This document shows positions 30,391 through 33,164 of a stretch of DNA of 33,164 nt, piece by piece. Origin of the DNA: Hyphomicrobiales bacterium (GTDB lineage: Bacteria > Pseudomonadota > Alphaproteobacteria > Rhizobiales > Beijerinckiaceae); contig PLRT01000055.1 of the NCBI GenBank assembly GCA_003164915.1, forward strand, positions 1 to 33,164, in the 5' to 3' direction. Position 1 is the stretch's first letter. Each line of letters starts with the position of its first letter. Position numbers and translations under genes: made by a program. The notes beneath the pieces are model-generated. The model made no database searches. It worked only from the letters and a program-made list of their open reading frames with translations, and was not told the DNA's origin.

Positions 30391-30921
30391 TCACACTTTC
30401 TCGACCTGCCCGAACTCGAGGTCGACCGGCGTCGCGCGGCCGAAGATCGACACCGCGACCTTGACCCGCGAGCGCTGCTCGTCCACTTCCTCGACCACGC
30501 CGTTGAATGAAGCGAATGGACCGTCGGCGACACGCACGTTTTCGCCGATCTCGAAGCGGATCGACGCCTTCGGCCGCTCGACCCCGTCGGCGACCTGGCC
30601 CTTGATCCGCTCGGCCTCGTTGTCGGGGATCGCCATCGGCTTCTTGTCGGCGCCGAGGAAGCCGGTGACCTTCGGGGTGTTCTTGATCAGGTGGTAGACC
30701 TCGTCGGTGAGGTCGCATTTCACCAGCACGTAGCCGGGAAAGAACTTGCGCTCCGAGTTGACCTTGCGGCCGCGCCGAACCTCGACGACCTGCTCGGTCG
30801 GCACCATGATCTCCACGAACTTGTCCTGCAGCCCGCGCTGGGCCGCCTGTTCGCGGATCGACTCGGCGACTTTCTTCTCGAAGTTCGAATAGGCGTGGAC
30901 GATGTACCAGCGCATGTTCAT
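30391..30921 (-). CDS. nusG: Transcription termination/antitermination protein NusG
   Basis: NusG binds RNA polymerase and modulates elongation, Rho action and coupling to ribosomes. The 176-residue protein has the NGN domain ([29 protein letters not shown]) and a C-terminal KOW domain ([19 protein letters not shown]). The start at 30921 (MNMRWY) fits the family length; the track start at 31296 runs through secE. secE lies 47 bases upstream, as expected. The usual next gene, rplK, is absent: msrP follows instead. Confidence 0.96.
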
Positions 30922-30968: not shown

Positions 30969-31166
30969 TCAGCCGCCGCGGCCGAGGCCCAGCGCCAGAC
31001 TGACCGCCACTCTGAGCCCCTCGTCGACGACCAGGAAGAAGAAGCTGGTGAACACCACCATCAACAGCACCATGCCGGTCGTGATCAGCGTCTCGCGCCG
31101 GCTCGGCCAGACGACCTTGGTCGCCTCGGACCGCACCTGCTGGAGAAACTCGAAAGGACTGGCCAT
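30969..31166 (-). CDS. secE: Preprotein translocase subunit SecE
   Basis: SecE is the small essential part of the SecYEG channel. The 65-residue protein has the conserved amphipathic [17 protein letters not shown] and a single membrane helix ([18 protein letters not shown]), the normal short alphaproteobacterial form. It leads the secE-nusG unit. The gene upstream on the other strand is SRAP; tuf is not present. Confidence 0.96.
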
Positions 31167-31268
31167 GTTTCTTCACGCCTGACGGCGGCTCGACGGTCGC
31201 GCGGCAGCGGACGCGCCGGGCCAAAAAATTGGGGCGCGGAACCTTTCGGCGCCGCGCCAAGCAAGCCT

Positions 31269-31297
31269 CATATAGGAAGCGGGGCCGCTTCGCCAAG
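31269..31297 (-). promoter_or_regulatory. Candidate promoter for secE-nusG
   Basis: On the minus strand CTTGGC-N16-CTATAT, close to the rhizobial CTTGAC-N17-CTATAT consensus. It would give a leader of roughly 95 bases before secE. The ten bases around the -10 (CCTATATGAG) also occur upstream of trxB. Confidence 0.5.
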
Positions 31298-31379
31298 CGA
31301 AATGTGCGGGCGGCGGCGCCGGACCTGCGCTTTTCCGCGCCCTTTGACCCTCCCCGGCGGCGCGGAGCAGGATCGATTC

Positions 31380-32021
31380 ATGTGCAACCTCTACTCGGTC
31401 ACCACCAACCAGGAGGCGATTCGCCGCCTGTTCGCGGTCGCCAACGACCGCGCCGGCAATCTGCCGGCGCTCTCCGCCGTATTTCCCGATCAGTTCGCGC
31501 CGATCGTGCGCAACGCCGCCGGCGGCGGGCGCGAACTCGTCCTGGCGCGATGGGGCGTCCCCGGTCCGCTCCAGGTCGGGCAGCCGCTGGTCACCAATTT
31601 GCGCAATCCGGCGAGCCCGTTCTGGCGGCGCTGGCTCGGGCCGGCCAACCGCTGCCTCGTCCCGGTCAACGCCTTCTGCGAATACGCGAATACGAAGCCG
31701 CGCAAGACGCCGGTGTGGTTCGCCCGCGACGACAGCCGACCTTTGTTCGCCTTCGCCGGCGTGTGGGGCCGCTGGCGCGGCGCGCGCGGGCCAAAATCGG
31801 CGCCGGTCGAGGGCGAGCACGAGCTGTTCGCCTTCCTCACCGCCCCGCCCAATGCGGTCGTCGCGCCGATTCATCCGAAGGCGATGCCGGTCGTGCTGAC
31901 CGACCCCACGGCCTTCGAGCTGTGGCTGACCGCCGACACCCCCGAGGCGCTGAAGCTCCAGGCGTCCGCGCCGGACGACGCGCTGACGATCGTCGCGCGC
32001 GGCCAGCGCGAAGACCCCTGA
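31380..32021 (+). CDS. SRAP (HMCES/YedK) family abasic-site DNA-protein crosslink protein
   Basis: SOS-response-associated peptidase domain protein of 213 residues. It would covalently shield abasic sites in single-stranded DNA. The nucleophile is Cys2 (MCNLYS), which is freed when the initiator Met is removed. The active-site glutamate is in NAFCEYAN, and the histidine in APIHPKAMPVVL. The start is fixed by the need for Cys2. It is divergent from secE, and lies between secE and the tRNA 3'-end fragment described below. Confidence 0.93.
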   Translation: MCNLYSVTTNQEAIRRLFAVANDRAGNLPALSAVFPDQFAPIVRNAAGGGRELVLARWGVPGPLQVGQPLVTNLRNPASPFWRRWLGPANRCLVPVNAFCEYANTKPRKTPVWFARDDSRPLFAFAGVWGRWRGARGPKSAPVEGEHELFAFLTAPPNAVVAPIHPKAMPVVLTDPTAFELWLTADTPEALKLQASAPDDALTIVARGQREDP

Positions 32022-32098
32022 GCCTGGCTCGCGCGGGGCTTCGGCTGGAGACCACAAGCTTTTGATCTAGCAAAGAATCGAGCTGATCACCGCGAAAC

Positions 32099-32120
32099 TG
32101 GCAGGAGAGGAGGGACTCGA
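32099..32120 (-). other. tRNA-Trp 3'-end fragment, putative attachment site
   Basis: On the minus strand these 22 bases read as the 3' end of a tRNA: T-loop TCGAGT, T-stem CCCTC, acceptor CTCTCCT, discriminator G73 and CCA. U72 implies A1, and A1-U72 with G73 is characteristic of bacterial tRNA-Trp. No anticodon arm or D-arm lies beside it: the match stops inside the T-loop, where the next base departs from the tRNA. This is what an integrase leaves when an element enters a tRNA 3' end. The intact tRNA would lie beyond the right window edge. Confidence 0.6.
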
Positions 32121-32176
32121 TGTAATTCGGCTCCCGGATCTGACCCGGTGATGACCAATCGTCTCAATGCATTACT

Positions 32177-32190
32177 ACGCCGATCGGCGT
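32177..32190. repeat. Perfect 14-base palindrome
   Basis: ACGCCGATCGGCGT equals its own reverse complement, without a spacer. It lies about 60 bases inside the putative island edge and about 145 bases past the gntK stop. It could be a protein-binding site or part of a termination structure. Confidence 0.5.
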
Positions 32191-32335
32191 TCGGACCCCG
32201 CGCCGATTGACAGCGGCGAGAGAAGCGCGCCCACAAAACACCAATGCGCCGAGGGAAGCGATCGGTTGATCAGCTCATGCCGACGCTGCTTCGCTCCGAG
32301 ATAGACGGAGGCTCACAACCGACCTGTGTCTCGTG

Positions 32336-32917
32336 TCAGCCGGCGCCGCGGCCGGACGACGAGCGCAATCCGCGATGCTCGCGTTGCAGCGCGGTCAGGA
32401 TGGCGTCGACGATCTGATCGGGCGAACCACCGATGTCGATCGTGATCACCGGTTCGTCCTTGTCGGGTTCCTCCAGCGTCTCGAACTGGCTGGCAAGCAG
32501 GCTCGGCGGCATGAAATGGCCCATTCGCTGGGTGATCCGCGCTGACACCAGCGCGCGTTCGCCGCGCAGATAGATCAACTCGACGTCAGACCGGCCCGCC
32601 CGAATGCGCTCGCGGTAGGCGCGCTTCAAGGCCGAGCAGGTGATGATTCCAGAAACACCCTCGGCGTTCCAGAGGTCGATGAGGGCGGCGATCGAATCGA
32701 GCCACGGCAGGCGATCGGCGTCGGTCAGCGGAATGCCGTGGTGCATTTTGTCGACGTTGGCCTGCGGATGGAGGGCGTCGCCCTCCTGGAACCTCCAGTG
32801 GAGTCGGCCCGCCAGCATAGCTGCGACGGTGGTCTTGCCAGAGCCGGACACGCCCATGACGATCAGGATGATCGGGGATGTCGTTCCCGCGGCCTCTTCG
32901 TTTACGACCGAGCTCAT
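32336..32917 (-). CDS. gntK: Gluconokinase
   Basis: GntK phosphorylates D-gluconate to 6-phosphogluconate, feeding the Entner-Doudoroff or pentose phosphate routes. The 193-residue protein has the P-loop GVSGSGKT (22-29), then FQEGDALHP and KMHHGIPLTDADRLPW, both characteristic of this kinase, and CSALKRAYRE and RMGHFMPPSLL further on. Its ATG overlaps the stop of the upstream MFS gene (ATGA), so uptake and phosphorylation are coupled. It lies on the presumed island side and looks slightly less GC-rich than its neighbours. Confidence 0.96.
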   Translation of the reverse strand: MSSVVNEEAAGTTSPIILIVMGVSGSGKTTVAAMLAGRLHWRFQEGDALHPQANVDKMHHGIPLTDADRLPWLDSIAALIDLWNAEGVSGIITCSALKRAYRERIRAGRSDVELIYLRGERALVSARITQRMGHFMPPSLLASQFETLEEPDKDEPVITIDIGGSPDQIVDAILTALQREHRGLRSSSGRGAG

Positions 32918-33164
32918 GGTTGCGAGGGATCGGCGATCGGCTCGATCTTGCCGAGAACGAATACGTACGACAGGATGCCGATCGCCAGCACCACGCCGGC
33001 AATCAGGAACGCGTTGCCGAACGACTGCGTCTCGCCGACGACGAACCCGGTGACCGCCGGGGCGACGACGCCCATCATGTTGTTGGCGAAGTTCATGATG
33101 CCGCCGATGGTTCCGGTGCCGCCTTGCGGCGCGATCAGCGAGGGGATCGACCAGCCGACCGGCG
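32914..33164 (-). CDS. MFS transporter, ACS family (C-terminal part)
   Basis: Only the last 82 codons are in the window; the gene runs off the right edge. GGTGTIGGIMNFANN and APAVTGFVVG followed by a last hydrophobic helix (IAGVVLAIGILSYVFVLG) match anion:cation symporters of the hexuronate/galactonate/glucarate type. With gntK overlapping its stop, a sugar acid such as gluconate is the likely cargo. The track start at 33096 is an internal Met. Confidence 0.85.
   Translation of the reverse strand, partial: PVGWSIPSLIAPQGGTGTIGGIMNFANNMMGVVAPAVTGFVVGETQSFGNAFLIAGVVLAIGILSYVFVLGKIEPIADPSQP

Follow-up and report, generated by a model that had tools for sequence, protein, structure and literature searches.

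A 22-base piece of a tRNA-Trp gene stands upstream of secE in a Hyphomicrobiales genome, and we regard it as most probably the attR-type scar of a mobile element that integrated into tRNA-Trp, a reading based on sequence comparison. The piece lies near the right end of the window, by which we mean the whole stretch of 33,164 nucleotides that was analysed (contig PLRT01000055.1 of assembly GCA_003164915.1), in the following setting:

30391..30918, minus strand: nusG, 89-94% identical in congeners
30969..31166, minus strand: secE, a core gene, on the presumed old downstream side of tRNA-Trp (TIGR00964 above cut-off)
31167..31306, minus strand: secE promoter/leader block, the last DNA conserved with congeners (blastn)
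31368..32021, plus strand: SRAP gene (SOS-response-associated peptidase, HMCES/YedK type), between the putative scar and secE (PF02586, E 3.6e-24)
32099..32120, minus strand: orphan tRNA-Trp 3' end, putative attR-type scar, identical to congeners' tRNA-Trp and unique in the window; made up of T-loop, T-stem 3' strand, acceptor 3' strand, G73 and CCA
32121..32212, minus strand: 92-bp dispersed intergenic repeat, TGTCAATCGGC...GCCGAATTACA, with palindromic core ACGCCGATCGGCGT, adjoining the tRNA fragment without a gap
32336..32917, minus strand: gntK, gluconokinase, presumed element cargo (TIGR01313 above cut-off)
32914..33162, minus strand: C-terminal end of an MFS transporter of the D-galactonate-transporter type, presumed cargo (TIGR00893 partial match, MFS_1)

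The minus strand of 32099-32120 reads TCGAGTCCCTCCTCTCCTGCCA, and these 22 bases are identical to positions 55-76 (T-loop through CCA) of the congeners' tRNA-Trp, that is, to the last 22 bases of the genes with anticodon CCA called there by ARAGORN, which bears out the initial annotation in its description of a minus-strand match running from the T-loop to the CCA. The 22-mer occurs once in the window, found a match in 0 of 100 shuffles and would be expected by chance, by arithmetic, about 4e-7 times in a genome of 3.8 Mb. Within it, CCTCTCCT is the version of this lineage's own tRNA-Trp, and many family relatives carry CCACTCCT at that place in theirs. ARAGORN and Rfam found no tRNA in the window, as expected for 22 bp. 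The fragment has several properties that the Islander catalogue asks of such pieces: it reaches through the CCA and is thus an end piece of a tRNA gene, not an internal one; it lies outside conserved coding sequence, between the SRAP gene (ending at 32021) and gntK (ending at 32336); and a cognate tRNA gene, its anticodon hidden by two Ns, is present in the same genome on contig C110. We conclude that the fragment is the displaced 3' end of the genome's own tRNA-Trp and not a chance match.

In the draft genome (G000; 285 contigs, 88% complete) the only second copy of the 22-mer, with up to 3 mismatches allowed, is at C110:140-161. It belongs to a tRNA gene at C110:118-161 that reads AGGAGTGTAGCTCAATTGGTA-NN-CGAGTCCCTCCTCTCCTGCCA, with both ends exact and a two-N assembly gap over the anticodon region; to judge from the congeners, it would be a tRNA-Trp. 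A different acceptor or T-arm in the genome's tRNA-Trp had been named at the outset as grounds for abandoning an insertion, and the C110 gene carries the same 22 bases. By position, U6 would face U67 in the acceptor stem of this lineage's tRNA-Trp (C110 and several congeners), and many relatives have A67 instead of U67. The C110 gene keeps the 5' flank of the congeners' tRNA-Trp and is then followed by unrelated DNA carrying sodB and cyoAB. Two Fe/Mn superoxide dismutase genes are present in G000, at C110:816-1433 and on C199; the C199 copy shares the neighbourhood of sodB on C139 of the sister genome G002, which marks the C110 copy as the additional one. For cyoAB, only 1 of 10 congeners has a close relative (84%), and C110 runs on into C140 through a 25-bp overlap.

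On the window side, the best congener copies of gntK are 38-60% identical and stand at other places (a gntK-like gene of G001 matches it at 67% by blastn); in the suggested comparison with relatives, no congener had a close gntK at this place. The MFS transporter gene is cut by the contig end at 33164, about 1 kb right of the fragment. C94 was considered as the rightward continuation through a 25-base end overlap and rejected, the shared end being convergent. GC content falls from 69.5% left of 31306 to 64.9% right of the 92-bp repeat and is 61.7% on C110, and this lower GC together with the gene content fits accessory DNA at both ends. It is plausible but unproven that gntK, the galactonate-type transporter, the second sodB and cyoAB all belong to one island.

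Synteny with congeners breaks just upstream of secE. By blastn against nine congeners, conservation of the secE promoter block stops at 31306-31311, and beyond about 31306 none of the nine matches the window apart from the tRNA-Trp piece and the gntK-like gene of G001. While tRNA-Trp lies within about 1 kb of secE(-nusG) in eight genomes of the family and three others of the order, no congener examined keeps it within that distance. Where congeners carry both on one contig, the two are 12.2 kb (G009) and about 29 kb (G010) apart without any orphan, so other processes also part tRNA-Trp from secE; in the other congeners they are on different contigs or were not both found. The interval in G009 (C149:4527-16600, L065) encodes GntR/FCD regulators, Asp/Glu racemase-like enzymes, an amidohydrolase, a beta-lactamase-fold protein and an MFS transporter, and neither an integrase nor an orphan tRNA end was found in it. 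The two tRNA-Trp matches of G008 seem to represent a single locus, present on two contigs with overlapping ends.

A comparable orphan occurs in the sister genome G002, the most informative one for comparison. Window positions 36-31306 align colinearly with its contig C89 (70-82% identity per block); beyond them C89 is unrelated, save for a tRNA-Trp 3' part of 49 bp (C89:46712-46760, positions 28-76) at a distance of 2.7 kb upstream from secE. An intact tRNA-Trp, with different DNA behind it, is present in G002 as well. The orphan has its gene of origin, its side of secE and its orientation in common with the window fragment, but differs in its length, in the patatin-like cargo between it and secE and in having no 92-bp repeat adjoining. 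Similar short repeats, TGGCACCAATTTGGCACCC and TGGCACCGCTTTGGCACTC, follow tRNA-Trp on C77 of G002 and precede the orphan on C89; they may have served an integrase as arm-binding sites at either end of a single element. No orphan tRNA-Trp end was found, with up to 5 mismatches in 22, in the regions examined in other congeners.

Integrases of the genus and its phages also point to tRNA-Trp. In the congener G007 the end of a tyrosine integrase gene lies 92 bp past tRNA-Trp, and a scan of IMG/VR for the exact 22-mer retrieved a prophage-type contig (L135, 3300041809_001828) with a full tRNA-Trp, an integrase gene 12 bp on and a tRNA 5' flank resembling that of the genome studied here, and a phage contig (L134, 3300037099_000532) that carries tRNA-Trp positions 29-76 alone, 21 bp past the integrase gene, a piece with an attP-like form. 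The L135 integrase shares 45% and 46% identity with the other two, and a search with an alignment of the three uncovered a fourth integrase beside tRNA-Trp in IMG/VR (L138). Of the 80 genome loci kept for relatives of these integrases, 48 have a tRNA gene next to the integrase, with tRNA-Met the most frequent. These arrangements indicate that phages use tRNA-Trp as an attachment site in this genus, so that a displaced 3' end is the scar one would expect. The two temperate phages and the G007 element share with the window a host with the same tRNA-Trp 3' end, but in them a tyrosine integrase lies directly downstream of tRNA-Trp or its 3' part, phage genes take the place of the metabolic genes near our fragment, and the shared piece extends from position 29 (anticodon stem) to the CCA; of this core of about 48 bp the window has only the 22 bp of positions 55-76, cut at the 92-bp repeat.

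The course of events that we favour, integration into tRNA-Trp, would have started from an ancestral tRNA-Trp shortly upstream of secE-nusG. A tyrosine integrase would have recombined the tRNA 3' end borne by the element (attP) with the tRNA-Trp gene (attB). The full tRNA-Trp now on C110, before the second sodB and cyoAB, would owe its 3' end to the element, and the original 3' end would have been left behind on the side of secE, at 32099-32120. DNA from 32121 rightward would then belong to the element, whose integrase may have been lost or may lie in the unassembled part. Together, the identity of the fragment, the congener-like 5' flank on C110, the break in synteny, the G002 orphan, the extra sodB and lower GC, and what relatives have at tRNA-Trp (integrases, prophages and an attP-like site) favour this origin. 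Against it count the lack of an integrase at either end, the location of the ends on different contigs, the anticodon gap on C110, the SRAP gene, and the orphan-free separation of tRNA-Trp from secE in G009 and G010. None of the five tyrosine recombinases in the draft genome, two of them Xer-like, is on C110, in the window or near either end, and ARAGORN found no tRNA beside them; nor did the integrase group of L135, L134 and G007 have a match beside the C110 tRNA-Trp, where sodB and cyoAB stand instead. The proposal of the initial annotation that an element entered tRNA-Trp is strengthened by the displaced 3' end and the tRNA-Trp-type copy on C110, but an integrase near the ends was not found, and its extension to everything right of the site reaches beyond a contig that stops about 1 kb further on, with the tRNA on another short contig; the search that it proposed for an intact tRNA-Trp with a tyrosine recombinase yielded a tRNA-Trp-type gene with the same 22 bases (and the NN gap), but no integrase beside it.

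The edge of the fragment calls for separate consideration. The match does break off within the T-loop, as first described, but the break coincides exactly with the end of the 92-bp repeat, so that the edge need not mark a crossover site. The repeat has 13 other, diverged matches in its own genome (C115:2854-2944, C120:5236-5321, C133:28326-28414 and others) and few in congeners. Its short inverted ends read TGTnAwTCGGC/GCCGAwTnACA, two tandem copies stand on C105, and it resembles a small non-autonomous element. That the repeat targets tRNA 3' ends was considered and rejected, as seven loci with other copies have no tRNA and their flanks are unrelated. The edge could with about equal likelihood be that of the integrase crossover or a later cut by the repeat. 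Known islands often have their sites at the T-loop or the T/acceptor junction (1836 islands with sites in the T-stem region versus 2083 with anticodon-centred sites in the Islander catalogue; PMC4383910), which counts against the repeat having set the edge.

Carried further, the involvement of the repeat leads to an explanation free of site-specific integration, in which the repeat or another rearrangement produced the fragment by cutting a duplicated or relocated tRNA-Trp in the T-loop, the 5' part being deleted. Aligned copies of the repeat are indeed conserved from TGT to ACA, ending exactly where the tRNA fragment begins, with unrelated sequence beyond the ACA, and neither a target duplication at the repeat nor a tRNA 5' part beyond it is visible. 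This scenario nevertheless fails to explain why the piece on the secE side is a CCA-bearing 3' end, oriented as in G002, whose orphan has no adjoining repeat, and it leaves the phage attP and the integrases at tRNA-Trp unaccounted for; we hold it to be improbable. An assembly artefact, with a false join in the contig at either the repeat or the 22-mer, has in its favour that the draft contigs share 25-base ends, so short repeats do break the assembly, that the NN interrupts the C110 tRNA beside the same 22-mer and that the neighbouring repeat is multicopy. The other repeat copies, about 79-96% identical over the matched stretches, are too diverged for a simple misjoin, however, and G002, an independent assembly, likewise carries an orphan on that side of secE, making a chimera highly improbable.

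The description of the fragment as lying next to secE was right as to vicinity but not as to adjacency, since 932 bp, including the SRAP/HMCES-type gene, intervene. No SRAP homologue was found at this place in the congeners examined, and the gene may either be older than the insertion or have arrived with another insertion. A second SRAP-family gene is seen on C263 (L104 3465-4136 and 6130-6801), separated by about 2 kb from a partial integrase of phage type at the contig end, which suggests that SRAP genes travel on elements in this genome. That the fragment is instead the attP or attL/R of a second, nested element, for example one that brought the SRAP gene, with the island on the secE side and not to the right, would accord with the absence of that gene from congeners and with the C263 neighbourhood, but is hardly credible for an interval (31307-32098) of less than 0.8 kb with core GC content (70.3%) and no integrase.

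With integration into tRNA-Trp as the preferred reading, the locus is a sound but ordinary genomic-island boundary, its mechanism being textbook and the case a new instance of a known mark, as displaced tDNA fragments are the standard sign of genomic islands (PMC4383910; PMC9897764). Like the tDNA islands of Islander, among which T-stem-region sites are common, it combines a tRNA gene with a displaced 3' fragment; unlike them (PMC4383910), its two ends are on unlinked contigs and no integrase is seen, so the Islander filters could not be passed, and where that catalogue expects a 3' fragment downstream of the tRNA gene, in the same orientation and 2-200 kb away, the fragment and the C110 tRNA lie on different contigs. 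CGI48 of Shewanella putrefaciens CN-32, a genomic island integrated in tRNA-Trp (PMC8978831), likewise has this gene as its conserved locus, but its reported entry is at the tRNA 5' end, with 50-bp sites and excision shown by experiment, and its host class and integrase are different (PMC8978831).

The small novelty lies in the tRNA-Trp hotspot of this genus and in the repeat that sits exactly on the putative scar. A broader scheme, in which the gap between tRNA-Trp and secE is a genus-wide hotspot used by phages and catabolic islands in turn and the repeat settled on the scar and cut it, strikes us as rather unlikely; if true, a palindromic repeat cutting the attachment scar would lock the island in place. 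The indicated group of phage integrases with tRNA-Trp as attachment site makes the hotspot testable, and the fragment precisely fixes where an accessory region of this genome has its left end.
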